Source of the DNA: a virus
Length of the DNA: 63,847 bases
Strand: one strand, 5' to 3'
Virus record (IMG/VR): IMGVR_UViG_3300033145_001771
Coordinates: 1 to 63,847 of that record
The notes under the pieces were generated by a model. The model did no database searches. It had not been told where the DNA came from and saw only the letters and a list, made by a program, of their open reading frames with translations. The position numbers and the translations under genes were made by a program. This document shows, one piece after another, positions 2,012 through 18,676 of this stretch; the first letter of the stretch is position 1, and each line of letters opens with the position of its first letter.

Positions 2012-2042
2012 CTCGAAATGAACTGTATGAGGAGAGGCTGAG

Positions 2043-2273: not shown

Positions 2274-2274
2274 G

Positions 2275-2367: not shown

Positions 2368-2369
2368 AG

Positions 2370-2692: not shown

Positions 2693-2693
2693 G

Positions 2694-2807: not shown

Positions 2808-2911
2808 AGGAATACATGTCTATACGCCCTGCTAAAGGAACATGTTGCCCAGAGATGAAAATAGTTGATGGAGTGTGTCAAGGATGTGGACACGTATATG
2901 AGGAGGGTTGA
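2804..2911 (+). CDS. Zinc-ribbon mini-protein (35 aa)
   Basis: ATGA overlap with the previous gene and GGAGAGGTTGAG upstream. It contains TCCPEM and CQGCGH, two cysteine pairs compatible with one zinc site. Confidence 0.5.
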   Translation: MKEYMSIRPAKGTCCPEMKIVDGVCQGCGHVYEEG

Positions 2912-2913
2912 GT

Positions 2914-2970
2914 ATGAGTAAAAGATGTATATGCAAACCATCGTGTGATTGTGGTTATCAACCATGGTAG
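2914..2970 (+). CDS. Cysteine-rich peptide (18 aa), doubtful
   Basis: A short frame after GAGGGTTGAGT-ATG encodes MSKRCICKPSCDCGYQPW with four cysteines. Its start signal fits the series, but it overlaps the GTG-started frame at 2945 and is too short to be sure of. Confidence 0.25.
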   Translation: MSKRCICKPSCDCGYQPW

Positions 2971-3163
2971 AGACCGACATACGCAAAAAATTAAGGAGAG
3001 AATTGAGGAGTTGGACAAAAAAGAAAGAGCGTTTAGAAAGTATGTAACTGAAACTTTAGAATCTGGTAAACTAATTAATATAACATCGGATGAATTCAAC
3101 AGCACACTCCACGATATATATGTTGCTAGATATGAACTCAAAAAATTACTGAAGGATGGATAG
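2945..3163 (+). CDS. Coiled-coil small protein (72 aa)
   Basis: It begins with a GTG. The charged heptad-like stretch KIKERIEELDKKERAFRKYV is followed by a second helix ending ELKKLLKDG. The start is uncertain because it overlaps the preceding peptide. Unknown function. Confidence 0.5.
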   Translation: MIVVINHGRDRHTQKIKERIEELDKKERAFRKYVTETLESGKLINITSDEFNSTLHDIYVARYELKKLLKDG

Positions 3164-3165
3164 TC

Positions 3166-3378
3166 ATGTCTGAGATTCTAACGAACATCAACGTCTTATG
3201 TCCTATATGCAAGTCAAAATTAAAAGTTAAATTTTATACATTTTATGACCATGATGGTGAAATTTCAGACGTTGAGATAGAACACAATTGCCCCAAAGGA
3301 TGCCTTTACGATGAGGGACAGATTAAGCAGATTGAAAGTGAAATTGATAAGCAATTAGGAGATATGGCTAAAGATTAA
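3166..3378 (+). CDS. Zinc-binding small protein (70 aa)
   Basis: CPICKSK near the N-terminus and HNCPKGC later form a likely zinc site, followed by an acidic helix. It lies two bases after the previous stop. Unknown function. Confidence 0.6.
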   Translation: MSEILTNINVLCPICKSKLKVKFYTFYDHDGEISDVEIEHNCPKGCLYDEGQIKQIESEIDKQLGDMAKD

Positions 3379-3394
3379 ACTTTGGGTGTATCAC

Positions 3395-3559
3395 ATGAAC
3401 CAAATTTTTATCTGCTCAATCTGTTATAAGGAAAGGCAAGAGATAGTCATAAAAGAATCTGAAGATGAGATGAAGGAGCATATGCAGGAGGAACATAACA
3501 TATCGGATTACAAAAATGTTGAAGTTGGAATTAGATTGGGAGGGGGATTTGCAGCATGA
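3395..3559 (+). CDS. C2H2-type zinc-finger protein (54 aa)
   Basis: CSIC near the start and H-x4-H (HMQEEH) after a helical spacer give a classical C2H2 arrangement. It could bind DNA or protein. It overlaps the next gene by ATGA. Confidence 0.55.
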   Translation: MNQIFICSICYKERQEIVIKESEDEMKEHMQEEHNISDYKNVEVGIRLGGGFAA

Positions 3560-3678
3560 GAGGAGAAGGACCGAATCTTACGATTGTTTGTGATTGGTGC
3601 GGTTGTGTGTATAAAGGGCAAGTTAATGATATATGTCCAAATTGTTTTTACGAAGGAGAGAAACAGAATGAAATTTAA
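3556..3678 (+). CDS. Zinc-ribbon mini-protein (40 aa)
   Basis: CDWCGC and CPNC are spaced 13 residues apart, a compact zinc ribbon. It overlaps its neighbours at both ends, which supports one polycistronic message. Confidence 0.55.
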   Translation: MRGEGPNLTIVCDWCGCVYKGQVNDICPNCFYEGEKQNEI

Positions 3679-3952
3679 GTTGTTCAATAAGAGTAAGAGG
3701 AGAGAAGATTTGGAATATTTTAATGGAAATTTTTTAGTTATGGTTGCCTCTGCGGAAGGAAATCTTATTTTTGTTGGTGATAAAATAAGCTATATTACAT
3801 CTAATGGTGAATCTGGTTATTTGTTATCAAACAAAACAGGTGATATTTTTACATTCCCTTACGATAAAGTAATTTGTGTACAAAATTTGTCTGATAAAAC
3901 TTGGAAGAGATTGACAAGGGACAAATCTAAAAATAGCGCGGTATTTGGGTAA
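3668..3952 (+). CDS. Small hypothetical protein (94 aa), beta-rich
   Basis: The ATG at 3668 follows AAGGAGAGAAACAG, so I prefer it over upstream starts. The protein has a basic start (MKFKLFNKSKRRED) and alternating hydrophobic strands (FLVMVASAEGNLIFVGD, YDKVICVQNL), suggesting a small beta-barrel. No family recognised. Confidence 0.6.
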   Translation: MKFKLFNKSKRREDLEYFNGNFLVMVASAEGNLIFVGDKISYITSNGESGYLLSNKTGDIFTFPYDKVICVQNLSDKTWKRLTRDKSKNSAVFG

Positions 3953-3973
3953 TCAAAAATTATTAATAAAAAG

Positions 3974-3984
3974 GTTTAAATATT
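3974..3984 (+). promoter_or_regulatory. TATA-like promoter before RNA 2
   Basis: AAGGTTTAAATATTATC lies about 50 bp upstream of the structured RNA. A second TATA-like string (CATATATAAAGG) is at 3993-4004. A ribosome-site-like GGAGAGGTGAAAT follows but has no reading frame behind it. Confidence 0.4.
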
Positions 3985-4032
3985 ATCAGGTTCATATATA
4001 AAGGAGAGGTGAAATAAAAGGTTTGAGAGGAC

Positions 4033-4167
4033 TCCTTCAATCAGGCTAAAATGGCGTTACCGTGTAACTTGCCTCCCGCAAGCTTTTCTGAGTTCGCAAA
4101 TTATATGCTACATTGAAAATCACCCAGCGAACTGAAACACGGGATGGCTCTAGCATACTGGTTGAGG
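4033..4167 (+). ncRNA. Candidate pseudoknotted structured RNA 2
   Basis: No gene covers this stretch. Pairings seen: closing stem CTTCAATCAG/CTGGTTGAGG (4035-4044 with 4158-4167, G-U tolerant), GTTAC/GTAAC (4056-4060 with 4064-4068), CTTGC/GCAAG (4068-4072 with 4078-4082), AGTTCGC/GCGAACT (4091-4097 with 4127-4133) and TATGCTA/TAGCATA (4104-4110 with 4151-4157). The last two cross each other, an H-type pseudoknot with two perfect 7-bp helices. CCGTGT (4060-4065) can alternatively pair with ACACGG (4137-4142), so the RNA may switch conformations. It sits just upstream of a zinc-ribbon gene and could be a cis-regulator or a stable RNA. Confidence 0.5.
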
Positions 4168-4186
4168 GGAAATAGAAGTGGTCAAA

Positions 4187-4321
4187 ATGGTAACAATAAC
4201 AGAATGTGGAAATTGCGGATACAAGTTTATCCGAGAAGGAAAGTATACAGATGTTGGGTACTGTCCATACTGCAGCAGTAATTATCTAGTTGAGGGTATT
4301 AGGGTTAAAAAGTCAGCATGA
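4187..4321 (+). CDS. Zinc-ribbon protein (44 aa)
   Basis: CGNCGYKF and CPYCSSNY knuckles 18 residues apart form a typical small zinc ribbon. It begins 20 bp after the structured RNA and may be controlled by it. Confidence 0.6.
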   Translation: MVTITECGNCGYKFIREGKYTDVGYCPYCSSNYLVEGIRVKKSA

Positions 4322-4617
4322 TAGGTTGTTATGAAGTTTTGTCAGTGTTTTTGTGTTTTTAATAAGATGAGAGTAAAGAGTTATAGACGAGATTAGACTG
4401 CCATATATAGTGATAATAATTAGAGGCTTTTATTGGGGGAATTGTGGATATGTGAGGTTGTGTGTGATTCTAAGAATAAAGGCGCAGGACTTTGTTTTGT
4501 GGTATAGAGGTTAAGTGAGTATTATAGTATATGGATTAAATAAATAGATGGAATTAAGTAGAGATAATAATACTGCAGCAATTTTAACTATCCCCTCTAT
4601 TTAACCCCCTTTGCGCT
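4322..4617. other. AT-rich intergenic region before the packaging operon
   Basis: About 296 bases without a credible gene. It is unusually rich in G and T on this strand and ends with a pyrimidine-rich tract (CCCCTCTATTTAACCCCC) just before the terminase start. I saw no clear TATA box or long hairpin; a packaging or cos/pac signal near the terminase genes is possible but unproven. Confidence 0.3.
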
Positions 4618-5184
4618 ATGCCTAAACTACTAAACCCGCCGGAAACAATACAGCGCCAAATCAAACAGGTAGTATATGAGCCACGCTGTAAAGTATGCAG
4701 CTCTCCAAATAGGGAAGACTATGAATCTCTGAGAATAACAGGCACCAGCCTCAATGAATTATCCAGGATTGCGCAGCGCGAGTATAACGAAAAGATAAGC
4801 GTTCCCTCCTTTATGGGCCATATGAAAAACCATATGGTCGTTATCGAAGGTATTTCTGAGGATGCGCTGAAATCAGAAAAAGACAGGCTGGATTTAGATG
4901 ATATTATAAAAAGCAATCTGGACTTGGAGCGCAAGCTTGTTGAGCAATTGGTTCAGGGGGATATCACAGAAGCAAGTATAGTTAATGCTACGAAAGCCTT
5001 GCTGACAGAGATAAGACTCACAATCGATATGCTATATAGACTGCGCACCGATAAGTTCAAATCAGAAGTTAATATGCAGGCGATTGTTCCAACTATTATA
5101 GAGTTAATTGAGGACGTTCCAAAAGACGTTAAGATACAGATGATTGAGAAACTTAAAAAGATGAAGCTGGTGAACGTAAGGTGA
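4618..5184 (+). CDS. terS: Probable terminase small subunit (188 aa)
   Basis: Position directly before the packaging genes, length and architecture fit a small terminase subunit, which recognises viral DNA and regulates the large subunit. The N-terminal third has CKVC with a downstream H-x3-H and a helix-turn-helix-like segment (ITGTSLNELSRIAQREYNEKIS); the middle and C-terminus are helical and charged, suited to oligomerisation. No catalytic motif is expected. The assignment is by context and domain plan; it could also be another DNA-binding regulator. Confidence 0.6.
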   Translation: MPKLLNPPETIQRQIKQVVYEPRCKVCSSPNREDYESLRITGTSLNELSRIAQREYNEKISVPSFMGHMKNHMVVIEGISEDALKSEKDRLDLDDIIKSNLDLERKLVEQLVQGDITEASIVNATKALLTEIRLTIDMLYRLRTDKFKSEVNMQAIVPTIIELIEDVPKDVKIQMIEKLKKMKLVNVR

Positions 5185-5558
5185 TTCTATGAGCGCAGGT
5201 AGAAATTGGGAGCGCAGTTGGATTCTAATAAGTGCTTATGTCTTCTAATATGGAAAGTGCGCCGGGAAGGTATGTAGATAACAAGCAGGGTCTATGTATG
5301 GGAGGAGGAGCGCTGTATCTCCTAAGATGGAAATTGAATTGGATGTAGTTTGTATATAGGGTGAGGAGTTGGTTTTTTGGTTTGTCCCGTTTTGAAATTT
5401 TACTGGGTGGGGGTCTGATAAAATAGCTAAGTATACACTAAATATAACTATTAAATTTAACTTCAACCCCACTTTTACCCTTCTACCCCTAGGGTATAAG
5501 CATCCAAAATACCTGAGAAATACAACTACACGCCGACCCTCTTGGGTTAGGTGGTAAA
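5185..5558. other. Intergenic region between small terminase and packaging genes
   Basis: No convincing gene in 374 bases. The first part is G-rich with only very short frames; the second part contains copy E of the dispersed intergenic repeat, starting at about 5460, with the palindrome ACCCCTAGGGT. Confidence 0.5.
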
Positions 5559-5610
5559 ATGAAAAAACCAGAAACACCCGATGCGCTCTTGGATTTCATA
5601 GAAAAACTAG
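5460..5610 (+). repeat. Dispersed intergenic repeat, copy E
   Basis: This copy shows the family landmarks in order: a pyrimidine-rich lead-in, ACCCCTAGGGTATAAGCAT, an ACGCCGACC...CTCTTGGGTT block, and a second block CGATGCGCTCTTGGATTT. The last block falls inside the start of the gene at 5559, so the right-hand limit is uncertain. Orientation matches transcription. Confidence 0.55.
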
Positions 5611-5738
5611 GAAAATGTTTGTCAGGAAACCACACAATCTTTCTAAGTAAAAGACATTTCTGGGGAAAATACACAACATTTGATGAAACTAGCAGAAAAG
5701 CCTTAATCCAATCTCTAAACTTTTTCAAATTGATATGA
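5559..5738 (+). CDS. Small hypothetical protein (59 aa)
   Basis: Preceded by AGGTGG at 4-5 bp. It encodes a mixed helical protein without known motifs. The first codons overlap the end of repeat copy E, so the gene may have a secondary origin. It overlaps the next gene by ATGA. Confidence 0.5.
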   Translation: MKKPETPDALLDFIEKLGKCLSGNHTIFLSKRHFWGKYTTFDETSRKALIQSLNFFKLI

Positions 5739-5863
5739 AATACTGTAACATATGCAAAAGGAGAAAACATTGTCCATTTAAAGAGTTGATATTTTGTACA
5801 AACTTCATACCTGATTTGATTGAAATGTCAGGTAGAATTAAAAGGCCAGAGGAAACATGGTAA
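5735..5863 (+). CDS. Cysteine-rich small protein (42 aa)
   Basis: CNICKRRKHCPF and a further cysteine (FCTNF) suggest one metal site. It overlaps the preceding gene by 4 bp and the histone gene by 7 bp, tying it to the packaging operon. Confidence 0.55.
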   Translation: MKYCNICKRRKHCPFKELIFCTNFIPDLIEMSGRIKRPEETW

Positions 5864-6072
5864 GGTTATCACTTACAACAATCAGACGCATAATGAAAGA
5901 TAATAGTGAGATAGGTGATATAAATCCTGATGCTGTTGTAGCGATGAGGGATATCTTAGAGGAGATAGTTAGCAGAATTGTGCCTCAAGCTAATTTATTG
6001 GCTCGACATGCAGGTAGAAAAAGACTATGGCCTGAAGATATCAAATTAGCATATAAACGGATGAAGTGGTAA
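5857..6072 (+). CDS. Archaeal-type histone (71 aa)
   Basis: The single histone fold is complete: a short N-terminal strand (LSLTTIRRIMKDNS), a long central helix (DAVVAMRDILEEIVSRIVPQANLLARHAG) and the diagnostic RKRLWPEDIKLA loop-helix, matching HMf-like histones in length and pattern. Archaeal histones wrap DNA as dimers or longer filaments. The gene overlaps the upstream small gene by 7 bp and the large terminase by 7 bp, so it is made with the packaging machinery. A role in compacting viral DNA before or during packaging is inference. Confidence 0.9.
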   Translation: MVRLSLTTIRRIMKDNSEIGDINPDAVVAMRDILEEIVSRIVPQANLLARHAGRKRLWPEDIKLAYKRMKW

Positions 6073-7394
6073 AATTGAGTCAATATAAAGAAGCAATCTT
6101 AGAAGCTTTAATGTTTGACAAATATAGAACTGACATAGATGCGTACACAAAGGAGAGGTTAAATATACCAAACCTATCGCCAGGCCAGTTGGAGTTTTTA
6201 AGGGATATGACCGACCTCAGCAATACAAAAGTTTTAATATGCTCGGCTAGAGGTGGTGGCAAGACATTCGCATCTGCAATAGTAGCCACCTGGTCTATTG
6301 ATATTTTGCCTTATTACTATAAAAAGCCATACGAAGTTACTGTATTGGCTGGAAGTTTTAAACAAGCAGAAATTCTTTATTCATACTGCAAGAAGTTCTT
6401 TACTAGAACAGCACTAGCGGACAAGGTTGATGGAGATGTTATGAAGACTAGAACTGTTCTAAAAGACGGCTCTCGGATAGATGTGCTAACAGCAAGTGAA
6501 AAACAGGTGAGAGGTCCACATCCCGATACTTTGTTAATTGATGAAGCATGTGAGGTACCAGATGATTTAATAAAAGCTGCTTTGCCTCAGGTATCTACAA
6601 GTTATCATGGACGTATAATCTTAACCAGTACGCCACATCACTACTTTAGCTATTTTGTTGATACATGGGAAAATGCTGAGAAACTTGGTTATAAAACATA
6701 TCAATGGAAAGCGGTTAGTTGTCCATGGATTGATAAAAAGAAAATTGAAGACGCTAAAAAGGAACTTGATAGCGAGACATTTAGAATTGAATGGGAAGGA
6801 TTGCCAACACCTTTAACAGGAACTGTATTTGATGGCGAAGATATCAAAAAGAGCATTATCGAATCACTTCCGTCCTTGACTGAAGACCCAATCTATATGG
6901 GCATTGACTGGGGGTTTGTGCATCCAACAGTTATAACTATCGTTCAAAACCAAGATGGCATATTTAGTGTTCTTCTGGCAGAGGAACATAAGCAAGCAAA
7001 GGCAACTGAACTAAGAGAACGAATCAAATCATTATATGATGAATATAATGTAGATAGAGTTTTTGCTGATATATCACATAAAGGAGAAAATCAACGGCTT
7101 GTAGATGATGGGTTAAATCTCGAAGAAGTTCCATTTACAAGTGAGAAAAGAATAATGGTTAGCAACCTAAAGTCTCTCTTTGAAAATAAGAAAATAAGAA
7201 TACCAAGTAGATTCATAGAATTGGTTAGACAGCTTGGGAAATACACATATATGACCACTCCCACTGGCAGGGTAACACTGTCCAAGGGTGATGATGATTT
7301 TGTAGATTCTCTGATGTTGGCTACAAAAGAGAGCAGGGTTATGCCCAATATATTTCATTATGCCACCATTAAAAGAGCAAGGAGGGGGATATGA
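6066..7394 (+). CDS. terL: Terminase large subunit (442 aa)
   Basis: The packaging motor contains an N-terminal ATPase and a C-terminal RNase H-like nuclease. Walker A is CSARGGGKT (about residues 57-65), Walker B is LLIDEACE (about 155-162), and nuclease acidic residues appear in MGIDWGF, FADISHKG and DDFVDSLMLA. Length is normal. It starts with GTG at 6066 inside the end of the histone gene; a TTG nine bases later is the alternative. The stop overlaps the next gene by ATGA. Confidence 0.93.
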   Translation: MVKLSQYKEAILEALMFDKYRTDIDAYTKERLNIPNLSPGQLEFLRDMTDLSNTKVLICSARGGGKTFASAIVATWSIDILPYYYKKPYEVTVLAGSFKQAEILYSYCKKFFTRTALADKVDGDVMKTRTVLKDGSRIDVLTASEKQVRGPHPDTLLIDEACEVPDDLIKAALPQVSTSYHGRIILTSTPHHYFSYFVDTWENAEKLGYKTYQWKAVSCPWIDKKKIEDAKKELDSETFRIEWEGLPTPLTGTVFDGEDIKKSIIESLPSLTEDPIYMGIDWGFVHPTVITIVQNQDGIFSVLLAEEHKQAKATELRERIKSLYDEYNVDRVFADISHKGENQRLVDDGLNLEEVPFTSEKRIMVSNLKSLFENKKIRIPSRFIELVRQLGKYTYMTTPTGRVTLSKGDDDFVDSLMLATKESRVMPNIFHYATIKRARRGI

Positions 7395-7594
7395 AGCACA
7401 GATACGACCTCAGAGACGAAAGAGTATGGCAATGTATATCAGAATTTCCTGGCTGGTTTACTGCAAAAGAAGCTTTTGAGCGTATGAACAAATATTGGAA
7501 GAAACATAAAGTAAAGTCTTCACGTTCTTTAGCCCAGATATTGCGCAGATTCGATTTAGAGCGAAAGGGAATGTATTATAGAGTTAAAAAATAA
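7391..7594 (+). CDS. Winged-helix-like small protein (67 aa)
   Basis: The sequence FTAKEAFERMNKYWKKHKVKSSRSLAQILRRF followed by KGMYYRVKK reads as a small winged helix with a basic recognition helix and a beta hairpin. It overlaps the large terminase and could be a DNA-binding regulator or packaging accessory factor. Confidence 0.5.
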   Translation: MKHRYDLRDERVWQCISEFPGWFTAKEAFERMNKYWKKHKVKSSRSLAQILRRFDLERKGMYYRVKK

Positions 7595-7600
7595 CAAAAG

Positions 7601-7610
7601 TATTTAATAG
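7601..7610 (+). promoter_or_regulatory. TATA-box promoter for portal operon
   Basis: AAAAGTATTTAATAG lies about 38 bp upstream of the portal ATG at 7643, in a gap of 48 bp after the preceding stop. It matches the other AAGTATTTA-type boxes in the genome. GAGGTAGA provides the ribosome site. Confidence 0.55.
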
Positions 7611-7642
7611 TTGGTGTTATTAATATTATATAGTGAGGTAGA

Positions 7643-8974
7643 ATGTCTAGATTTGAAAAGTTATCAAATGCAGCAAGGTCAATTAGGCAAACAGTTTTGC
7701 CAAAGAAGGCGGCTGTTACATTTGAAGTTGCGAGCATTTCACCAAAAAGGATTTTAACAAAGAGCAGGCTTAAAAGAATCTCTCCAACTGATTTAGAGAG
7801 GTTATACCACTTAGATGGGTTGATATTTAACGGGATTAACTTAATTGTCCATTATACGGTTACAAACTTTAAAATAGAGTGTGATGACCCCAAATCAAAA
7901 GAAGTTATTGAGAATTTTGTTAAACAATCAAATCTGCACCTTAAGATGGAAGAGATAATCCGGCATGAATGTATATATGGAAACTTTTACGGTGAACTGA
8001 ATTATAATAAGCCAAAGTCTAACATTGTTGATATTACGGTGATGGACCCCAAGACCATAGATTTTAAACGTGATAGTAAGGGAGTTATAGAACTTATCGA
8101 TAACCGCATTCCAACAGGTTATGTGCAGAAAGTTGGTATAGATAAAAGAGAGTTTAAATTTGATGAGATAGCCCACTTTAGGTTATATACTGTAGCTGAT
8201 TCTTGGAACGGAATTGGTTTAATTGAACCACAATATAAAATTTGTTTGATTAAACTAAACTTGGAGGAGGCGTTGGGTGAATCAGCATGGAGATATTCTT
8301 CGCCTACAATATTAGCTCAGATAGGTGATGGCGAAAGAAGAGAGACATGGCCTACACCTGAAGCAATCCAAAACTTTAGCAAAGAGCTAAGGAATTTTGA
8401 TTATAAAACTGATTTGGTTGTTCCATACTTTTATAACATTAAGTTTTTACAGCCAGGGACTTTAACAAACATGCGTAATCATATGGAATACTTCATTAAT
8501 CTACAATGTGCAACGTTAGGCGTTCCAAGAGCTATTTTGCTAGGAGCTGCCGAAGGAGCGAATAGAGCGACTGTAGAGATACAAGCGAAACAGTTCGCAA
8601 AGAAAATCAAATCGATTCAAGCACATTTAGCACATGATATTGAAGAACAGATATTTAGACGTATAATTGAGTTGAGGGGGTTATCTGAAGTTCCCAGAAT
8701 AGTTTGGGATGAAATTGAAGCTGAAACATTAACAGAAAAAGCGGAAAGATATGGTTTGTATGCTAAGACGGGTCTGCTTACACCAGATGATAATATTGAA
8801 AAGGTAATAAGAGAGAGCGAAGGCTTGCCACCCAAAGAGGAGCTTAGGGAATTAGCTAAACTTGAAGATAATAGGTTCATAGATACAGAGGACCTAGACA
8901 AAAAGGTGGCATCTGAACTTGATAGAGTTTTTGGTAATATGAAGAGAAAAAGCCTGAATCTATTCAAGAAATGA
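7643..8974 (+). CDS. Portal protein (443 aa)
   Basis: The product forms the ring through which DNA enters the head and to which the tail attaches. Typical portal features include the early LDGLIFNGINLIVHYTVTNF segment, an IVDITVMDPKTIDFKRD strand region (wing/stem), the FDEIAHFRLYT segment, and a helical C-terminus with the LGVPRAILLGAAEGANRATVEIQAKQF block common in portal crowns. Length and place between large terminase and MuF fit. The stop overlaps the next gene by ATGA. Confidence 0.88.
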   Translation: MSRFEKLSNAARSIRQTVLPKKAAVTFEVASISPKRILTKSRLKRISPTDLERLYHLDGLIFNGINLIVHYTVTNFKIECDDPKSKEVIENFVKQSNLHLKMEEIIRHECIYGNFYGELNYNKPKSNIVDITVMDPKTIDFKRDSKGVIELIDNRIPTGYVQKVGIDKREFKFDEIAHFRLYTVADSWNGIGLIEPQYKICLIKLNLEEALGESAWRYSSPTILAQIGDGERRETWPTPEAIQNFSKELRNFDYKTDLVVPYFYNIKFLQPGTLTNMRNHMEYFINLQCATLGVPRAILLGAAEGANRATVEIQAKQFAKKIKSIQAHLAHDIEEQIFRRIIELRGLSEVPRIVWDEIEAETLTEKAERYGLYAKTGLLTPDDNIEKVIRESEGLPPKEELRELAKLEDNRFIDTEDLDKKVASELDRVFGNMKRKSLNLFKK

Positions 8975-9552
8975 TATCTATATCCGATGTTAATGATTTA
9001 AGTTTTGACAAAGAACAGAAGCAATTCTATAAAGTGCTTCTTGGCTATATGTTGAAAGCATTTAAGAGAGGAGGCCAAAGAGCATTTGATGAATTTAAGC
9101 CTAAACAGACATTGCAAGAAATTACTGGGGTTTTTGAAATAGAGAAGGATGGAGAAGCAGAGCGATTTTTACAAACATATGCACTTAAACTAAGTGGAAG
9201 AGTTACAGATGAAATAGAGACGGAGGTTAAGACAGAGATTATGACAGGGTTGAACAAAGGAGAAAATATTAGCAAAATAGAGAAACGGATTCGGGATGTG
9301 TTTGATGCCACTAGGTATAGGGCTGAATTAATAGCAAGAACGGAAATGGCTAGAGCAGTCAACGTTGGTAGGCTTGAAGGTTATAAGAGAGCCGGAGTTG
9401 AGAAAGTTCAGTTTATTGTAGCGGGTGATGAGAGGACTTGTTTAGAGTGTATGGATTTAGAAAATCATGTGTTTAGAAGGGAGGAGGCACCAGATTTGCC
9501 AATCCACGCGAATTGCCGTTGTACTATAGTGCCTTACTTTGAGGAGAGATGA
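8971..9552 (+). CDS. MuF-type head morphogenesis protein (193 aa)
   Basis: The C-terminal half is a MuF (SPP1 gp7-like) domain: the helix LIARTEMARAVNVGRLEGYKRAG, then AGDERTCLECMDLENHVF, and the closing IHANCRCTIVPYF, with the conserved cysteines and histidine. These minor head proteins sit next to the portal. It overlaps both neighbouring genes by 4 bp, showing tight coupling. Confidence 0.88.
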   Translation: MISISDVNDLSFDKEQKQFYKVLLGYMLKAFKRGGQRAFDEFKPKQTLQEITGVFEIEKDGEAERFLQTYALKLSGRVTDEIETEVKTEIMTGLNKGENISKIEKRIRDVFDATRYRAELIARTEMARAVNVGRLEGYKRAGVEKVQFIVAGDERTCLECMDLENHVFRREEAPDLPIHANCRCTIVPYFEER

Positions 9553-10991
9553 GAGGATTATATATTCAACCGCCTCATGGCAAGCTGGTTATAGAAGGAA
9601 AACAAATGGCTGTTGTATACTCTAGAAAGTATGATATCTTAGATGAGCCTATATACTTATGTTCAGGAGAATTCTGTTATGGTATTATTAAATTAACCAA
9701 CGTCAGAGAAATTAATTTAGAGGAATTTAAGGAACTTCAAGACAAACATAAGGTTACAGACGCAGAGCGTTTAAAGTGGTGGCCAGATGTAGAGACACTA
9801 TACCTTTATAATGTGTCAGTAATAAGTGTCTTTAACCCACCCAAGTTGTATAAACATGATTCTAATGTGCAAACCATGATTAAGGAAGTTGAATTCTTGG
9901 AAAAGGAGGAAACACTAATACGTAAAGGTCAAGATGTGTCCAAGATGGATACTAAAGAACTTTTATTTGACCATTCGATTTTACACGCTTGGGCTAAACA
10001 TAATTGGGCAAAGAAACCGGATGATTGGACGATAACAGAATGTGAGATACTTCACGATGAGATTGAAGCCGAGCTTAACAAGAGAGGCTATAATGTACAT
10101 TCGCCAATTCACAGACCACCACGAGAAATGTTAAAAGAACCAGATTTTTGGGAAGAGTATTGGGATTTAGAAGGACCAGAACGCCTTACGTTTATCTATG
10201 ATATGTCGGCAATAATACCAGAAGTTGTGGGTGACAGTGTCTTAGAGGTGGGATGTGGAGGAGGTAAAGCTCTTGAGATGTTTGCGATGTCTGGCTATAG
10301 AGCTGTGGGGATTGATAATAACGATGTGCCTCTCTATGTGTGTAAGAAAAAAGGATTAGAAGTATATAAGGGTGATGCACAGAATTTAGATTTTGATGAT
10401 AACTCGTTTGATACTGTCTTTTCAATGCACGTATTAGAGCATGTTGATGATGACAAGAAAGCGATTCAAGAGAGTTTGAGAGTTGCTAAATATAGAGCCA
10501 TACATCTCATTCCTTTGGGTAAACGGAAACCAAAGTCACATAAGAGGATATATAGCGAGAGCGATATAGAAAAGTTAGCCAAGGAAGCTATGGACGATGG
10601 AATTCCCTGCAAAATTAAGAAGACAGATGTTATAAACGATATAGTCTTGGTTTTGGTTAAGAATAAACATATTCAGTTGAAGAAAGAAGAGGTTATGCTG
10701 GACGATATACTTGATAGGTTTAAAGATTTCTCAGTATCATCTCCACACATCTTTATTGTTGGGAGTTCGGTTGAGCAAGGAAAGTTAGGCAATGATTTAG
10801 ATATTTTAATTAGACAGATAACCAGAGACCCAGTGATTGAGCTTAGGATTAGAAAAATGTTCCCGGATAATATAAGGTTACACTTTGTCTATGACCCAGT
10901 TGGCCCGCATGATGATTATGTTCCATTATACAATTGGGAATTCAAGAGAGTTAGAGATTCGAAAGTTGTTAAAATGAAAAAAGAAGATTAA
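9549..10991 (+). CDS. ASCH-like / SAM methyltransferase / nucleotidyltransferase fusion (480 aa)
   Basis: Three parts are visible. Residues 1-105 (IQPPHGKLVIEGKQ... ) resemble ASCH/PUA-like RNA-binding folds. The middle holds a class I SAM-dependent methyltransferase with VLEVGCGGGKALEMF (about 231-245), GIDNND and DTVFSMHVLEHV. The C-terminus has the minimal polymerase-beta nucleotidyltransferase signature IVGSSVEQGKLGNDLDILI (GS followed by DxD, about 399-417). The order is unusual, and the gene is coupled to MuF by ATGA overlap. A role in RNA or DNA end modification is possible; the substrate cannot be read from the sequence. Confidence 0.75.
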   Translation: MRGLYIQPPHGKLVIEGKQMAVVYSRKYDILDEPIYLCSGEFCYGIIKLTNVREINLEEFKELQDKHKVTDAERLKWWPDVETLYLYNVSVISVFNPPKLYKHDSNVQTMIKEVEFLEKEETLIRKGQDVSKMDTKELLFDHSILHAWAKHNWAKKPDDWTITECEILHDEIEAELNKRGYNVHSPIHRPPREMLKEPDFWEEYWDLEGPERLTFIYDMSAIIPEVVGDSVLEVGCGGGKALEMFAMSGYRAVGIDNNDVPLYVCKKKGLEVYKGDAQNLDFDDNSFDTVFSMHVLEHVDDDKKAIQESLRVAKYRAIHLIPLGKRKPKSHKRIYSESDIEKLAKEAMDDGIPCKIKKTDVINDIVLVLVKNKHIQLKKEEVMLDDILDRFKDFSVSSPHIFIVGSSVEQGKLGNDLDILIRQITRDPVIELRIRKMFPDNIRLHFVYDPVGPHDDYVPLYNWEFKRVRDSKVVKMKKED

Positions 10992-11017: not shown

Positions 11018-11467
11018 TCATCCACTGCGTGTGCAACTGAGTGGTAATTCAACGCCGTATTTCTCTCTGATATTTTCTGCAAATTTCTTGCGGACTTTAT
11101 ACCCTGTCCACCTCACTGGGATGCCATTCTTTACAAGGATTTTAACTGTATTCTCTTCGCACCAGCGTTCTTTATTTCTTATTTTTCGTCTTCGTGAGAA
11201 TGGCATCCATGAATACTTATGATGTTGTAACTCATGCACCCAAATGTGTATGATTGATTCAATTGGTATATCTTTGCCTAATCTCATTACGATTCCTTCG
11301 CCGAATGGATAGTATGTGCCCCGGCCTACATTTGAATGTCTACCTTGATATGGTATGCACCGAACTCTCAGCTTTGCCGTTGAAACTCTCGATTTCTTTG
11401 CCCATTCTATAAGCAGTGCTCTCAGCTCTTCCGTTGGTATATGTGTTGTGTTTTCAATTATTCTCAT
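11018..11467 (-). CDS. SprT-like HExxH metalloprotease A (149 aa)
   Basis: The zinc-binding helix is HELQHHKYSW (about residues 89-98), with strand-rich sequence before it and a basic helical C-terminus, consistent with a minimal SprT/zincin domain. It is followed by no zinc ribbon. It lies on the minus strand, opposite to the flanking virion genes, 6 bp after the related gene at 11474. Target unknown. Confidence 0.65.
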   Translation of the reverse strand: MRIIENTTHIPTEELRALLIEWAKKSRVSTAKLRVRCIPYQGRHSNVGRGTYYPFGEGIVMRLGKDIPIESIIHIWVHELQHHKYSWMPFSRRRKIRNKERWCEENTVKILVKNGIPVRWTGYKVRKKFAENIREKYGVELPLSCTRSG

Positions 11468-11473
11468 TCTTTT

Positions 11474-11959
11474 TCACCTCGTTAGTCTTTTTTGCAAGTC
11501 AGCCATTCTTGCATAAAATGATTTAGTGTGTGCCCCACATCGACTTCCAATATCTACATCATCATCAAGCCAATGTGTAAGCTCATGTATGAATGTTGGA
11601 ATAAAGTCTGCATGAGGAGAAATTGTAATGTCATATCGGTCTTTAGCGATTGCTCTGCAATAGAGTCCCAACAGCCCCTTTCTGAGTGGTTCTATTTTAA
11701 CTTCTGGATGTCCTACCATACCTCCACCAATACAATCGCATACTTTGTATAATTCTTGCGGGGACAGTGTTTGTCTTTCTCGTCCCGTTAAATGTGGACA
11801 GCTCCAAGCATCAAGATTGAGCTCTTTGACAAGTTCATTCGCTATTCGTACCTTCGACCTTTTCTGCTTCGCGTTTTGCAATTGCTTGAAGAGCATTCGT
11901 GTTTTCTTGCTACATTTGAGGGGCTGATTGAATTTTGTTCTGGTGATAGTTGATTTCAT
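11474..11959 (-). CDS. SprT-like HExxH metalloprotease B (161 aa)
   Basis: FIHELTHWLDDD carries the HExxH zinc motif, with a further histidine downstream (GAHTKSFYARM) as possible third ligand, the pattern of SprT-like proteases. The N-terminal third is basic and probably binds nucleic acid. It forms a three-gene minus-strand operon with 11018-11467 and the zinc ribbon at 11960-12088. Confidence 0.65.
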   Translation of the reverse strand: MKSTITRTKFNQPLKCSKKTRMLFKQLQNAKQKRSKVRIANELVKELNLDAWSCPHLTGRERQTLSPQELYKVCDCIGGGMVGHPEVKIEPLRKGLLGLYCRAIAKDRYDITISPHADFIPTFIHELTHWLDDDVDIGSRCGAHTKSFYARMADLQKRLTR

Positions 11960-12188: not shown

Positions 12189-14972
12189 GTGTTAATTATA
12201 GTATCACCCTTCAGGTTTGTTAAGCCACAAAAGGCATCAAAATGGTGGTCAAGTAACGAAGTATTTACTTTAGAGGCACTTGCTGATATTGTACCGGAAG
12301 GACGTTACTTTGTATCTAAAAAGTTTGATGGATATAGAGCTCAGTTGCATAAGAAAGGTAAGAATATAAAGCTCTATACTTCTACCGGTCGTGATGTAAC
12401 CAAACGATTCCCTTCTCTTGTTAATGATGCTACTAAATTGATTGTTACGTCTGTAATTTTAGATGGCGAACTTGTAACATATAAAAATGAAAAACCTTTA
12501 CGCAGAACTGCCGTTGCTGATTTAGTAATGGGAAAGGATGAGCCAGATGATTCTGGTATTATATTCCACGTTTTTGATACCATTTACTTTGATGGCAAAG
12601 ATGTTCATAAATTGCCACTTTCTGAACGCATATCATTACTCCACAAACTTAACCAGACTAAGCACATTAGGAAACTTAGTTTTAGTTCTGATGTTAGCAA
12701 AAATGCAGAAGAGTATCTTGTATCTACAACAAATGATTTACTAAAAGCAGTTAAAAAAGTAAGTCGATTGGTAGGTTCGGAAGGTGCTATGGTGAAAAGC
12801 GCCGATGGTATATATGAGTTGGATGGTGAGACAAGAACGTGGTATAAGTTCAAAAAGACATTGCAGGTTGATGCTCTTGTTATTGATAAGAAGCTAATTT
12901 CAGGAGCTAAAGAAACATATCAATATAGTTGTGCCGTTGGTCCAATAACAAAAGAGCTAGCTAATAAGATAGGTGAAACAGCAGTAGTTTATAAAGGCAA
13001 GTTTTATATGAAAATTGGAAAAACATTTAATACTAACGTAAAAGCAAATGTAGGAGACATTATAACTGTTGATGTTCTAGAAATAAGAAAATGGGATGAT
13101 GCTACCTATACATGGATGATTCCAAGAGTAATAGATGTTAGGTTTGATAAAAAGAAGCCTGACCCTCTATCTGTTTTAGATAGAGTTGCTGAAGTAACTC
13201 CTAGAGAGCTATCAAAAGAATTTGTTTTTGATTTTTTACAAGAAGTGAAAATATCAAGATTTTTGCAGAGTAATTATTCGATTAAAACGCTAAAGCTAGA
13301 TATATTCAAACCACCTAAGAAAAAGAAAGCGAGATATGTTATGCAGTATCATGATAGGGGGAAGTCTAGGCACACAGACTTAAGATTAGAGTGGGATGGA
13401 TTTCTAGTTGGTTTAACTTTATTTGACCCCGGACGGATTGGTAAACCTCCCAAGTTGTCTAATAAGCCAGGAATGGATGGGAAGAAGATACAATGCATTT
13501 TCAAACCAAATCAACCTAAGACATGGTTAGACTTTGAAGGATATGTGCCACCAGGCCAGGTGGGAGCGACAGAGAGATTACCTGCCACATTTAAGATTAT
13601 AGATAAGGGTACATTTTTGATGGGCACACAAAAGTCTGATTTCTTAGAGTTCTTTTTATTTGGCAAGCGGTTTAATGGGAGATTTGTAGCTCGCAAAACC
13701 GATTTACCGCCGAGGGGAGAGCCAGGAGAAAGAATTGAAGAAAGGCCAGTCTGGTTATTCTGGAAGCCAAAAGACCAAAGACCATATGTTGGTGTTGATA
13801 ATCCTACAGAAGAACAGTATGTTAAGAGAGCAAAAGAGATTGGATTACCCAATGACTATATAAAAAAATATATACTTCAAAGATTAAATAAAGAATATAG
13901 TATGTCTGATATATATGAGCATCCTGTTGTGCAAGAATTGCTAACACAACTAAGCAATGTTGAAACTAGTGGTAACACACTTCAAAAAACAATGAAAAAT
14001 CATTGTGGGAAGACATTTGTTACTTTATCACTTCCAATAACAAAATATGAAGAGCTAGATAAATCTGATTTTCCATTAGTTGTTGAAGGCATTGCCATTA
14101 GAGAAGGAAAAATGAATGGTGTTTATTATGATGCCAATGAACTTGAAAAGGGATATGATTCTTTGAAAGGGAGATTGATTAAGATTGACCACAGCGATTC
14201 AGTTCGAGACCACATCGGAAGGGTTCTAGATGTTTCATGGAATGATAAACTAAAACAGATTGAGTTTACTGGCGGAATATGTGACCCCGACATCATAAAT
14301 AAAATTAAACACAAGCTAGTTGAGGGTGTTAGTGTTGGAGTCTTTATTGATGAAGAGTCGACAGATAGAGGTCCATCAGCAAAAAACTTAGAATTTGTTG
14401 AAGTTAGTTTGGTGGAGGACCCCGCATGTCCAGGTTGTATGATTAAATTATCAGCAGTGCCGGGGGATACTAATGAAAAGATTTTATTAAGCTCAAAATA
14501 TAATAACAGTAAGGAGGTGAATTCCTCAATGGCAAAAGAAAAGAAAATTGCAGAAGAAGAGGCTGTGAAGGAAGAAACTCCAACCTCAGAAGAGATAGTG
14601 AAAGAGCCCTCGACGGAAGAAGAAGTCAAAACTACTGAAGATGTGACGGAGGCAGAAGCTCCTGCAGAGGGACAAAAATATCCAGCACCCTATCCTCATA
14701 CTCACCCCGAGCTAGAGGAAGCAATTAAGAAATTAACTGCAAGGGTTGATGCGCTTGAAAAGAAGATATCCGAGATGAGTGCGTCTGAGAATGAAGAGTC
14801 TAATGTGGAGCTTGAAAAGACCGATGAAATAGAAGAAATTAAAAATGAGCTTAAACAGCTTAAAGAAGAAATTAGCAAACCTGTCGTAAAAGCTATCAAA
14901 TCTGAGGAAGATGGTTTAGAAGATAAAGATTTTGCAAGGTTGGCACGTGATTATTTAAAGAGGAGACAATAA
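12189..14972 (+). CDS. ATP-dependent DNA ligase / 3'-phosphoesterase / prohead protease / scaffold fusion (927 aa)
   Basis: One uninterrupted frame joins four units. Residues 40-330 form an ATP-dependent DNA ligase core: KFDGYR motif I (lysine 45), DGEL, FHVFD, EGAMVK and WYKFKK, followed by an OB fold. Residues about 380-530 resemble the LigD-type phosphoesterase domain (MQYHDRGKSRHTDLRLEW). Residues about 610-775 resemble an XkdF/S78-type capsid maturation protease: IDHSDSVRDHIGRV, VEGVSVGV with the likely serine, and VSLVEDPACPG. Residues 781-927 are an acidic coiled-coil scaffold. It lies just before the capsid gene where protease-scaffold genes belong. It starts with GTG after ATGAGGTG. 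Self-cleavage could free the ligase; that is inference. Confidence 0.85.
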   Translation: MLIIVSPFRFVKPQKASKWWSSNEVFTLEALADIVPEGRYFVSKKFDGYRAQLHKKGKNIKLYTSTGRDVTKRFPSLVNDATKLIVTSVILDGELVTYKNEKPLRRTAVADLVMGKDEPDDSGIIFHVFDTIYFDGKDVHKLPLSERISLLHKLNQTKHIRKLSFSSDVSKNAEEYLVSTTNDLLKAVKKVSRLVGSEGAMVKSADGIYELDGETRTWYKFKKTLQVDALVIDKKLISGAKETYQYSCAVGPITKELANKIGETAVVYKGKFYMKIGKTFNTNVKANVGDIITVDVLEIRKWDDATYTWMIPRVIDVRFDKKKPDPLSVLDRVAEVTPRELSKEFVFDFLQEVKISRFLQSNYSIKTLKLDIFKPPKKKKARYVMQYHDRGKSRHTDLRLEWDGFLVGLTLFDPGRIGKPPKLSNKPGMDGKKIQCIFKPNQPKTWLDFEGYVPPGQVGATERLPATFKIIDKGTFLMGTQKSDFLEFFLFGKRFNGRFVARKTDLPPRGEPGERIEERPVWLFWKPKDQRPYVGVDNPTEEQYVKRAKEIGLPNDYIKKYILQRLNKEYSMSDIYEHPVVQELLTQLSNVETSGNTLQKTMKNHCGKTFVTLSLPITKYEELDKSDFPLVVEGIAIREGKMNGVYYDANELEKGYDSLKGRLIKIDHSDSVRDHIGRVLDVSWNDKLKQIEFTGGICDPDIINKIKHKLVEGVSVGVFIDEESTDRGPSAKNLEFVEVSLVEDPACPGCMIKLSAVPGDTNEKILLSSKYNNSKEVNSSMAKEKKIAEEEAVKEETPTSEEIVKEPSTEEEVKTTEDVTEAEAPAEGQKYPAPYPHTHPELEEAIKKLTARVDALEKKISEMSASENEESNVELEKTDEIEEIKNELKQLKEEISKPVVKAIKSEEDGLEDKDFARLARDYLKRRQ
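14511..14520 (+). promoter_or_regulatory. Internal ribosome binding site for nested scaffold
   Basis: AAGGAGGTGA is a near-perfect Shine-Dalgarno sequence inside the fusion gene, followed after 8 bases by an in-frame ATG at 14529. It is among the strongest ribosome sites in the window, despite lying within coding sequence. Confidence 0.8.
14529..14972 (+). CDS. Nested capsid scaffold protein (147 aa), internal in-frame start
   Basis: Translation from the ATG at 14529 yields only the C-terminal scaffold of the fusion: MAKEKKIAEEEAVKEE, a Glu-rich linker, then a coiled coil (LEEAIKKLTARVDALEKKISEM and LKQLKEEISK) and a basic tail (ARLARDYLKRRQ) as seen in capsid-binding ends of scaffolds. The plan equals phage lambda C/Nu3, where protease and scaffold share a frame. 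The strong internal ribosome site allows the excess of scaffold over protease that assembly requires. Confidence 0.75.
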   Translation: MAKEKKIAEEEAVKEETPTSEEIVKEPSTEEEVKTTEDVTEAEAPAEGQKYPAPYPHTHPELEEAIKKLTARVDALEKKISEMSASENEESNVELEKTDEIEEIKNELKQLKEEISKPVVKAIKSEEDGLEDKDFARLARDYLKRRQ

Positions 14973-14973: not shown

Positions 14974-15861
14974 ATGAAAAAATTAGAAGAGTTGGCTGAT
15001 ACTACAACCACAGAAGTTGATGCTGTAATCCCTGAAATATGGTCTGACGAAGTTGAAGCTGCAGCTCAGGCTAGGAGAGTAGCTAGAAACTTTGTAAAAG
15101 TTAATGAAGATTTGAAGAATGGTCCTGGTGATATCATTCATATACCCAAAACCGGCAAAATAAATGCTGTTGCTCTGACAGAAGGTACAGATATCACTCC
15201 AACAGCTCTTGAGTATTCGACTCTAGATTTAACACCTGCTCCTGTAGGTGCTGGAGTTAGAGTTACAAGAGAGGCTGTTGAAGAGGCTAGATTGGATATT
15301 TTGAGAGATGCTACCGAGCAACTAGGCGAAGCACTGGCACAAAAAGAGGACCAGGATATTCTTGAAGCGCTGGCTGGTGCTACTGGTGCAGTTTTATACG
15401 GTGGTGCTAAGAGCTCATCGGCAGAACTGGTGCTTGGGGATGTTCTAACTACAGACCTGATTGCGAGTGGTGTAACTGAAGTTCGTTCTGATAATTACAA
15501 CCCAGATGTCATATTTATTGCACCTGAACAAGAGAGAGCTTTGCTAAAAGATTCTCAGTTCGTTGATGCATCTAAGTATGGCGCAAATGAGGTTGTGCAG
15601 AACGGAGAAATCGGTAAGTATCTGGGTATGAAGGTCATTGTAACTACAAACCTACCAAAGGTGACTGATGGAGCAGCAGGACACAAATGTTTGATATTTG
15701 ATAGTAAACATGCTGGTGCGATAGCTATCAAGCGTGATGCTACTATTGATACAGACTATGAAGTTCTGAAGAGGAGCCATCTGCTTGTAGGTACAATGAA
15801 ATATGACGCAGGCAGACTCAACGATTCTGCAATTTGTGTGTTGGTCGTATCAGACGCATAG
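14974..15861 (+). CDS. Major capsid protein, HK97 fold (295 aa)
   Basis: Size, position after protease-scaffold and composition identify the shell protein. The N-terminal arm (EVDAVIPEIWSDEVEAAAQARRVARNFVKV) leads into the E-loop region GPGDIIHIPKTGKI, then the spine-helix region REAVEEARLDILRDATEQLGEALAQKEDQDILEAL, with IFIAPEQERALLKDSQF and a C-terminal A-domain strand set. The start follows AGAGGAGA and lies two bases after the scaffold stop. No decoration or cleavage site was mapped. Confidence 0.9.
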   Translation: MKKLEELADTTTTEVDAVIPEIWSDEVEAAAQARRVARNFVKVNEDLKNGPGDIIHIPKTGKINAVALTEGTDITPTALEYSTLDLTPAPVGAGVRVTREAVEEARLDILRDATEQLGEALAQKEDQDILEALAGATGAVLYGGAKSSSAELVLGDVLTTDLIASGVTEVRSDNYNPDVIFIAPEQERALLKDSQFVDASKYGANEVVQNGEIGKYLGMKVIVTTNLPKVTDGAAGHKCLIFDSKHAGAIAIKRDATIDTDYEVLKRSHLLVGTMKYDAGRLNDSAICVLVVSDA

Positions 15862-16696: not shown

Positions 16697-18676
16697 ATGT
16701 GGAAAACAAAATATAGCCCATCCCAGGAAATTTTAAGTCTTAGGAGCTATTCTACAAAACATTTCGAATTAGGTAACGGTAAGCGGGTTGCTATTCTTAC
16801 GGGGTTACTTCACGCTTGGGACGGGCAAAAATTTATAGAATTACCTCCTATACCACAAATAGAAGGTAAACTTTTAGATAAACCGAAAAAATTACACAAA
16901 GTTTTAGACGTTCCCTATTGGGCTTCCTGTGAAGTTCAAGATGGGGGTAGAACGATTCTTATTAGAGATAAGAATAATGTTACCATATGGAAGCATAGTA
17001 ATGTTGCAGTTTATGATGCTGATATTGACCCATATATCAGAGATGAAGAGAATGAAATAATCAGAATTGATAAAAATAAGGTAGTTCCTTCAAAATTTGT
17101 TGTTAAAGGAAACGAAGTTTTCTTGGAAGTTCCCAAGGGGTTAAAATATCCGCTTAAGGTTGACCCAATTGTAGAAATCGGGCAGGGGACGGCGGATGAT
17201 TCGATTTTGCTTCATGCGCTTCCTGACACAAATTATGGTGATAGAGAATATATCCGCACAGTGCCCTATAGTGGTGACCCAGACCGAAGTATAATTAGGT
17301 TTGACTTATCGCCTCTGCCAGCAGGCTCTACTATCACAGATGCGAAATTATATTTATATTGTTGGACTGTGAATGGAAATTGGATAGATAGTGTTCATAG
17401 AGTTAATCATACTACTCCAAACTACGAAACGGATTGGGTAGAACTCGAAGTAACGTGGAATGATTATAAGTCTGGGACTGCTTGGGGGACTGCTGGTGGC
17501 GATTTCAATGCAACTGCGACTGATAGTCTTCTAATTAGTTCAACTGGTTGGAAATATTGGGATGTGACATCTGACTGCGATGCACGTGAAGAAAGAAGCT
17601 GGATTATCAAATCGCCAGAAGATGCCGAGGCGGGATTCTATCACTATTTCCGTTCCAAAGAATATACAGACGACACATCCCTCCGACCGTATTTGGAGGT
17701 TACGTATGAAGTAGGCGGGCAAGTATATACTAAAGAACTTTCAGATACAATCGGACCAGTTAGTGACTTAATTTCAAAGATTAGTGAAAAGATACCAATC
17801 ACAGAAACATTAAACATTGTAGATAGCGTTTCAACAGCCCAACAGATTATAAGAACCTTAACTGAATCACTCACCGTTTCTGATAAAGCGGTGACTGTTA
17901 AGCAGTTCATTAGAAATTTCCAAGAATCGTTGACAATATCTGACGCTAAAGAGACTGTAGGTCATTTTATAAGAACTTTACAGGAGTCAATAAGTATAGT
18001 TGATGCTAAAGAACTTGTTTCTCGGTTTGTAAGAGAGTTAGGAGAAACTGTTGATGTATCTGATAAAGTAGAAACTGCTACCCAATACATAAGAGCATTG
18101 GGTGAATCAATAAACGTATCCGACACTAAAGAATTTGTTTCACAGTTTGTAAGAGACCTACAGGAGAGTCTCAGTGTATCTGACAAAATAGAGACAATTA
18201 GTCAGTTTGTAAAGAGGCTTCAAGAGTCATTTGGTATTTCTGACAAAGTTCAAGTTAGCAGCAGGTTTGTAAGAACCTTACAAGAATCCATTAGTATAAG
18301 TGATGCAAAAGAAATATTTAGCAGATTTATGAAAACGTTACAAGAATCATTTGATGTATCAGATACTGTAGAAACTATTCGGGGGTTTTCGAGAAGCCTA
18401 CAAGAAACACTTGCGGTATCTGACAAAGTGGAGTCTGTCCGCATATTTATAAGAGAATTCCGAGAATCGATTACAGTTTCTGACACACTAACATTTGTCG
18501 GCATAGTTAAATTAATCCGAGTTTCAATTGACATTCTAAAGACAAAGATTGGGATTCTATTCAAGAAGTTAAGTTTGTCGATTAAAGTCGCTTATCCAAC
18601 AATTGATGTAAATATTTTAAAGAGTAAAGTGGAAACTATTATAAAGAAAACAAAAGTAGAGGTTAGTATCGAATGA
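16697..18676 (+). CDS. Fibre protein with DNRLRE-like domain and 20-residue repeats (659 aa)
   Basis: Residues about 170-335 resemble the DNRLRE/disaggregatase-related beta domain: DDSILLHALPDTNYGDREYIRT, SIIRFDLSPLPAGSTITDAKLYLY and the closing SLRPYLEVTYE. This is followed by twelve imperfect 20-residue units of the type QESxSVSDKxETxSQFVRxL (residues 369-608) and a hydrophobic basic C-terminus. Such a protein is probably an adhesin or side fibre contacting the host envelope; DNRLRE domains occur in archaeal surface and polysaccharide-related proteins. It sits between capsid and connector genes, an unusual place for a fibre. Confidence 0.7.
   Translation: MWKTKYSPSQEILSLRSYSTKHFELGNGKRVAILTGLLHAWDGQKFIELPPIPQIEGKLLDKPKKLHKVLDVPYWASCEVQDGGRTILIRDKNNVTIWKHSNVAVYDADIDPYIRDEENEIIRIDKNKVVPSKFVVKGNEVFLEVPKGLKYPLKVDPIVEIGQGTADDSILLHALPDTNYGDREYIRTVPYSGDPDRSIIRFDLSPLPAGSTITDAKLYLYCWTVNGNWIDSVHRVNHTTPNYETDWVELEVTWNDYKSGTAWGTAGGDFNATATDSLLISSTGWKYWDVTSDCDAREERSWIIKSPEDAEAGFYHYFRSKEYTDDTSLRPYLEVTYEVGGQVYTKELSDTIGPVSDLISKISEKIPITETLNIVDSVSTAQQIIRTLTESLTVSDKAVTVKQFIRNFQESLTISDAKETVGHFIRTLQESISIVDAKELVSRFVRELGETVDVSDKVETATQYIRALGESINVSDTKEFVSQFVRDLQESLSVSDKIETISQFVKRLQESFGISDKVQVSSRFVRTLQESISISDAKEIFSRFMKTLQESFDVSDTVETIRGFSRSLQETLAVSDKVESVRIFIREFRESITVSDTLTFVGIVKLIRVSIDILKTKIGILFKKLSLSIKVAYPTIDVNILKSKVETIIKKTKVEVSIE
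17801..18520 (+). repeat. Twelve tandem 60-bp coding repeats
   Basis: The DNA encodes twelve consecutive 20-residue units with conserved ES...SD...F(I/V)R.L positions. The units have diverged enough that the nucleotide repeats are imperfect. They may form a repetitive stalk; copy number could vary between relatives. Confidence 0.85.

Follow-up and report, generated by a model that had tools for sequence, protein, structure and literature searches.

A DNA ligase and phosphoesterase fused in frame to a prohead protease and scaffold: a repair kit probably packaged with a viral genome

Why should a DNA ligase share one reading frame with the protease and scaffold that assemble a viral head? The question is raised by a single 927-codon gene in the virus record IMGVR_UViG_3300033145_001771 of IMG/VR, whose entire 63,847 bases were analysed and are called the window below. 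The predicted protein carries an ATP-dependent DNA ligase and a LigD-type 3'-phosphoesterase (PE) N-terminal to a prohead protease and a scaffold. According to our hypothesis this is a head-assembly gene that would carry end-repair enzymes into the prohead, where the protease would release them, and from which they would be ejected with the DNA to mend or circularise the genome. We assign this reading a probability of about 0.58. Put more generally, it is probable that such viruses pack a set of DNA repair enzymes into their particles along with the genome.

Domains of the fusion protein

The frame is free of stops from 12189 to its terminal stop at 14970-14972 (Table 1). The GTG start at 12189 is doubtful, with no Shine-Dalgarno (SD) sequence upstream and a GAGGTG that overlaps the GTG itself, but the domains are unaffected. 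A virus from another metagenome (contig L002) has PE, protease and scaffold in one frame at 98% identity to the window, followed by the gene for the major capsid protein (MCP). Because L002 spans the PE-protease joint, and more distant relatives have both this joint and that between ligase and PE, an assembly chimera is ruled out. The initial annotation, made by reading the sequence, had described an in-frame fusion of ligase, phosphoesterase, protease and scaffold in an archaeal virus; the open frame, the profile matches and L002 agree with it.

Table 1. Position of the fusion gene, its domains and the neighbouring genes in the window
Feature	Position	Strand	Remarks
Terminase large subunit (6066), portal (7643), MuF-like (8971)	6066..9552	+	head/packaging context
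Companion gene: ASCH-like, helical module, methyltransferase, Pol-beta-type nucleotidyltransferase	9549..10991	+	C-terminal part matches N-terminus of ANMV-1 ligase protein
Two HExxH zincin-like genes between nucleotidyltransferase gene and ligase gene	11018..11959	-	
Fusion gene, 927 codons: ligase, phosphoesterase, prohead protease, scaffold	12189..14972	+	open frame; residues 482-927 confirmed by L002
ATP-dependent DNA ligase, residues 5-336	12201..13196	+	KKFDGYR 12318-12338, SEGAMVK 12777-12797, motif VI-like PRVIDVRFDKK 13122-13154
LigD-type 3'-phosphoesterase, residues 374-533	13308..13787	+	H388, H395, D397, R399 kept; H84/Y88 positions replaced
Prohead protease, residues 605-775	14001..14513	+	His668 and Ser715 align with relatives' catalytic His/Ser; MCP gene follows at 14974
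11-nt Shine-Dalgarno match TAAGGAGGTGA	14508..14518 (to within one or two bases)	+	8 to 10 nt before ATG 14529
Scaffold, residues 781-927, predicted also to be made alone from ATG 14529	14529..14972	+	
HK97-fold major capsid protein	14974..15861	+	TIGR04387 9e-31, phrog_544 7e-32

Structure prediction and profile searches matched both the ligase and the protease. The whole-protein model, for which 15 relatives were aligned, is reliable in the ligase and PE parts (predicted local distance difference test score, pLDDT, about 72-94 in most blocks) and poor past residue 565, the alignment there having a depth of only two or three rows. Pfam DNA_ligase_A_M (PF01068) matches residues 38-222 above its cut-off (E=1.2e-28), the family hidden Markov model spans residues 5-336, and a Foldseek search of the ligase model (pLDDT mostly 75-94) against the PDB retrieved archaeal, human, T4 and Pmar-Lig ATP-dependent DNA ligases (E 1e-14 to 1e-18), which bears out the ligase core first seen as short motifs. 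The nucleotidyltransferase core has motif I (KxDG) and motifs III-V, represented by K45, D47, G48, E94, D130, E198, K220 and K222. Residues 312-322 resemble motif VI and form strands in the model; there was no OB-fold match in Pfam. Among 26 family members the catalytic residues are nearly always kept (K45 in 25/26, D47, G48 and D130 in 26/26 each, E94 in 25/26, E198 in 24/25 and K220 in 24/24), the single exception being L041, which has lost K45, E94 and E198. The second lysine of motif V is replaced by His in much of the group whose protease is of the XkdF type. The L041 pseudo-ligase (L041:8513-11269; K45R, E94V, E198R) retains PE and XkdF and is still joined to the protease. In L078 (3648-8855, residues about 385-738) an intein with a LAGLIDADG endonuclease lies directly after the ligase KKYDG; inteins favour such sites in constrained enzymes.

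The LigD-type phosphoesterase named in the initial annotation is matched by TIGR02777 (E=2.3e-7), by phmmer against the PDB (2-3e-5) and, below its cut-off, by Pfam LigD_N (PF13298, E=0.0026). The QxH...HxDxR active-site residues of LigD are present as H388, H395, D397 and R399. The LigD motif HPLxY, whose H and Y we take to be H84 and Y88 of P. aeruginosa LigD, reads QPKTW in the window, with Q442 and W446 at these positions and the W nearly invariant across the family. The domain is thus homologous to LigD PE by sequence but is not a canonical member, and because the replacement W is kept family-wide its chemistry may differ from that of LigD.

Matches of the protease by sequence alone are weak (Peptidase_S78 E=0.025, NF045541 5.7e-9, phrog_617 5e-7). 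A separate model of this region (mean pLDDT 74.5, about 72-91 over the domain) retrieved prohead proteases from a viral structure library, with a best E of 1.7e-8 and 161 matches at E<=1e-3; in the PDB it found herpesvirus assemblins weakly (E 0.02) and nothing significant. The Pfam profile search gave no match to PF14550 (XkdF) in the window protein. Consequently, the XkdF/S78-like assignment made earlier holds for its S78 half, as an S78/DUF2213-like protease by fold and profiles, and not for XkdF. The protease of L047 is homologous to that of the window (hhalign E=7e-5, 27% identity); S78/DUF2213 proteases occur in the window, L047 and L051, and XkdF in the other fusions. The XkdF of L004 looks like an ordinary prohead protease, since the protease family phrog_3017 is split there over two genes, its N-terminal part (29-154) corresponding to the XkdF end of the ligase protein and its C-terminal part (300-400) to the next gene. 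Phage XkdF genes labelled "DNA methyltransferase" were considered as a precedent for an enzyme-XkdF fusion and not used, as the two Pseudomonas genes checked measure only 456-465 nt; the protease gene of Lactococcus phage 28201, also considered, is of ordinary size. By eye, the gene that follows the ligase-XkdF fusion in L005 (L005:12818-15784, 988 aa) resembles a second prohead protease joined to the major capsid protein, and this virus may have two head proteases.

The remaining 147 residues (781-927) form an acidic coiled coil with an isoelectric point (pI) of 4.6, in keeping with the scaffold first proposed.

Recurrence of the fusion in related viruses

A search for the same fusion in related viruses yielded 12 further viral contigs that encode ligase, PE, in some cases a module PE2, and a prohead protease in one frame, at 26-34% identity to the window. 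With the complete window protein or L005 as single query, scans returned near-identical copies only; the further relatives came from scans with a PE alignment (4 rows) and a PE2-XkdF alignment. Ligase-PE-PE2-XkdF in one frame is found in L004, L005, L039, L042, L043, L064, L068, L074, L075, L076 (of which L077 is a near-copy) and L078, and both PF01068 and PF14550 score above curated cut-offs in 7/7 XkdF fusions scanned against Pfam. The fusion of L047 ends in the S78-like protease; next come, as separate genes, a coiled coil and a capsid protein. L051 reads ligase-PE-DUF2213 protease-nucleotidyltransferase-scaffold, split by a TAG, in a genome from the same phylum as that of L008. This TAG, in frame within the ligase (L051:7440-7560, VNRVSHI*ITMLFRG), could be a true split, a read-through site or pyrrolysine in a Methanosarcinales-type host.

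Elsewhere the enzyme and the protease are separate. They are neighbouring genes in L006, L008, L049 and L057, and L009 places ligase and PE on two genes. Genes for similar proteins have portal and DUF2213 protease genes as neighbours in L008-L010, which are contigs of Methanosarcinales/Methanophagales metagenome-assembled genomes (MAGs), and in L049 and L050; in ANMV-1, L008, L049 and L050 the enzyme gene has the portal and/or a separate protease nearby. The fusions of L004 and L042 are flanked by portal, MuF and virion structural genes. Two contigs with ligase matches and neither PE nor protease (L007, L018) were left out of all counts.

In the phage records searched, the ligase-PE pair occurs nowhere but in ANMV-1. 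Its "ATP-dependent DNA ligase" (AJP62006.1 of KP703175, 866 aa) resembles the window set in being nucleotidyltransferase-ligase-PE-PE2, with 28% identity over residues 8-589, and its gene directly follows that of the portal. Unlike the window protein, it is not joined to the protease, a DUF2213 protein that is encoded elsewhere. ANMV-1 is believed to infect an anaerobic methane-oxidising archaeon, and the accessible part of that report does not mention the ligase (PMC4372165).

Loading of the enzymes and rival explanations

The sequence suggests how a head gene could supply both plain and loaded scaffold. Codon 781 is an in-frame ATG (14529) at the point where the acidic coiled coil begins, 8 nt behind TAAGGAGGTGA, the only 11-nt match to the anti-SD sequence on either strand of the window. 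An equal site arose anywhere in the gene in 74 of 5000 synonymous-codon shuffles, a null that retains the amino acids S-K-E-V and thus favours re-creating the motif. L002 has the TAAGGAGGTGA site trivially, at 98% identity, and L051 independently has an 8-nt SD sequence, AGGAGGTG, before its fused scaffold. Because of the 11-nt match before codon 781, the gene probably yields free scaffold as well as the fusion. No SD-preceded start was found near the window protease domain, and for this reason every protease molecule probably carries the ligase. In L043, L064, L068 and L078 an SD-preceded start stands immediately upstream of XkdF (P about 0.002 when compared with the rest of these genes). Of these, L064 and L068 share 88% identity and are not independent. 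In several lineages the assembly part thus seems, by its predicted starts, to be made both plain and enzyme-loaded.

In the scheme that we favor, the scaffold would come mostly from the internal start. A minor full-length product would co-assemble through the shared C-terminal scaffold and so bring protease and ligase-PE inside the prohead, with the upstream nucleotidyltransferase/methyltransferase/ASCH protein as partner. The protease would then excise itself and the scaffold, while the basic ligase-PE (about 69 kDa; residues 1-604 have a pI of 9.6) would stay with the DNA and be ejected with the genome for nick mending, 3' end cleaning or closure of the incoming DNA. Packaging, cleavage sites, retention, ejection and DNA as the substrate are what we infer here. 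The placement in the prohead suspected in the initial annotation gains support from the two protease types, the head-gene position in relatives, the nested scaffold start and the lack of an SD-preceded protease-only start, the last two being sequence predictions.

Several observations weigh against this scheme. The PE is without two LigD catalytic positions, L041 and L081 carry PE-XkdF without a working ligase, and in 10 of the 14 XkdF-bearing members the protease lacks an SD-preceded start. Since translation in archaea can also begin at leaderless or SD-independent starts, the missing SD sequence before the window protease is no proof. Moreover, the fusion ligase is the only one found in the window genome, and a role in replication is therefore possible. 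The ligase-PE would then work in the infected cell, fused to the head gene for co-expression and freed before assembly by proteolysis or partial translation. The virus has its own family B DNA polymerase, several relatives keep the enzyme gene separate from the protease, and L009 divides even ligase and PE. However, every informative relative encodes the enzyme in the head gene block, away from replication genes, the fusion to a prohead protease is repeated and involves two protease types, and in the window only the scaffold end has a predicted start of its own. We consider this explanation unlikely.

The evidence for placement would serve equally well if enzymes in or at the prohead sealed nicks in concatemeric DNA that would stall the packaging motor, with no need for ejection. 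Since the ASCH, 2H, adenine methyltransferase and nucleotidyltransferase modules resemble the entry-phase polyvalent effectors described in PMC5512222 more than packaging factors, we regard this as rather improbable. Little weight is given to a head-delivered effector in which the ligase/PE/nucleotidyltransferase set would act not on viral DNA but, in defence evasion or take-over, on RNA ends, nucleotide signals or host proteins: the altered PE active site, the motif V change from Lys to His and the partners that relatives carry (2H phosphoesterase, ASCH, TGT-like) would suit it, but the profile and fold matches of the ligase are DNA ligases, and L039, L043 and L068 have DNA-directed D12 adenine methyltransferase partners. 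It is very improbable that ligase and PE are a structural relic, serving as inactive spacers or core proteins; the L041 fusion does persist after loss of three catalytic residues, yet nearly all other members keep these residues, with overall identity at about 30%, and one gene bears an intein at a catalytic motif.

Precedents exist for parts of the preferred scheme, delivery of repair enzymes from the head. In nested protease-scaffold genes of the lambda C/Nu3 type the scaffold is also made alone from an internal start, but no DNA-repair enzyme is attached. Phage T4 places enzymes (Alt, IPI-IPIII) in the prohead core, where the prohead protease cuts them before they are ejected, and its gp21 has an essential internal start; foreign enzymes fused to IPIII are packaged in 20-200 copies, processed and delivered (PMC9026906). 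Each step of loading, release and delivery is therefore possible. The T4 proteins differ in using short N-terminal targeting peptides, whereas the window enzyme has the protease and scaffold themselves as fusion partners. Like the polyvalent proteins of phages and conjugative elements, which are large, have their genes among those of the virion and are presumed to be injected (PMC5512222), the fusion is a multidomain enzyme protein encoded inside a virion gene block. Polyvalent proteins have 2H, Pol-beta nucleotidyltransferase and DNA adenine methyltransferase domains in common with the ligase-PE family, but the accessible part of that paper mentions neither a DNA ligase or LigD phosphoesterase nor the prohead protease as a carrier, and its authors state that they never saw the 2H domains with RNA ligases. 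Bacterial LigD and archaeal end-joining modules also combine phosphoesterase and ligase as an end-repair set (PMC7719229). The window differs in having no LigD-type polymerase domain, a Pol-beta nucleotidyltransferase partner, H84 and Y88 replaced, and a place in a head gene. Ku was not seen among about 20 window proteins scanned. End joining of incoming phage DNA has a precedent, as the mycobacteriophages Omega and Corndog express Ku and infect using host LigD, according to PMC7719229; Ku was present in only ten of the archaea surveyed there. Head-packaged enzymes and polyvalent proteins are already known, and a ligase/LigD-PE cargo on the prohead protease would be a variant of them. Neither such a cargo nor such a carrier was described in the accessible literature that we searched, which covered few subscription journals.

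Were the hypothesis true, it would explain, in a form open to test, how linear viral DNA is repaired or closed when it enters hosts mostly without Ku-dependent end joining. It would also define a general loading device, in which an enzyme reaches the capsid interior by being attached to the N-terminus of the protease/scaffold gene product. In viral metagenomes, many genes annotated as "ATP-dependent DNA ligase" would move from replication to the virion. Wider still is the idea, to which we give somewhat less than an even chance, that a wide range of archaeal and possibly bacterial tailed viruses use the head-maturation protease to deliver a self-released DNA end-joining kit (nucleotidyltransferase, phosphoesterase and ligase, supplemented by methyltransferase, 2H and ASCH). 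The kit would be packaged alongside the genome, which it would repair or circularise upon entry, and nested starts would determine how much of the assembly protein is loaded and how much plain.

Companion gene, genome and host

The window is the whole IMG/VR record and has a 40-bp direct repeat at both ends; because of this repeat the assembly is probably complete and circular. Its head genes run from terminase, portal and MuF through the companion gene, two minus-strand genes and the fusion to the HK97-fold capsid gene. The fusion gene belongs to a larger enzyme set that the initial annotation overlooked, the companion gene at 9549-10991 contributing ASCH, methyltransferase and a nucleotidyltransferase that retains the G-S...D-L-D motif. 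The joint between nucleotidyltransferase and ligase in ANMV-1 is the exact point at which the window set is divided. The two zincin-like genes there (11018-11467, HELQHH; 11474-11959, HELTHW) thus sit exactly between modules that are fused in relatives. No sign was seen that this insert is a mobile element; its flanks have just a 9-mer in common, and no flanking repeats were found.

Relatives carry ASCH, 2H, TGT-like and D12 adenine methyltransferase modules, which leaves room for RNA or anti-defence roles. A helical module of about 55 residues (ELL..HW.LH.WY...LH..I..EM.RRG..H) in the companion protein (residues 129-189, window 9933-10115) occurs in 19 other open reading frames; it recurs across the enzyme proteins of the ligase-PE family and is possibly an undescribed polyvalent-associated domain. 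In L047 the N-terminus of the protein at 3995-7666 and the gene at 1816-4014 show DUF6884, a short match to Pyr_excise (pyrimidine-dimer glycosylase) and a LAGLIDADG domain beside the nucleotidyltransferase.

The window encodes an anaerobic ribonucleotide reductase, NrdD, besides the family B DNA polymerase. From these genes and the kinship with ANMV-1 and Methanosarcinales/Methanophagales MAG contigs, the host appears to be an anaerobic archaeon, probably a methane-cycling one; the earlier guess of an archaeal virus fits this kinship. No tRNA genes were found in the window. The minus strand at 29617-43841 encodes two glycosyltransferases, a GDP-mannose dehydratase/epimerase and a B12-binding radical SAM protein, which are genes of a surface-sugar type. 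A CBM96/disaggregatase-like protein (window 16697-18676, L002:3066-5141) is 82% identical between the two viruses, with insertions and deletions, where they are otherwise 96-100% identical in this region; its gene is fast-changing and perhaps surface-related.

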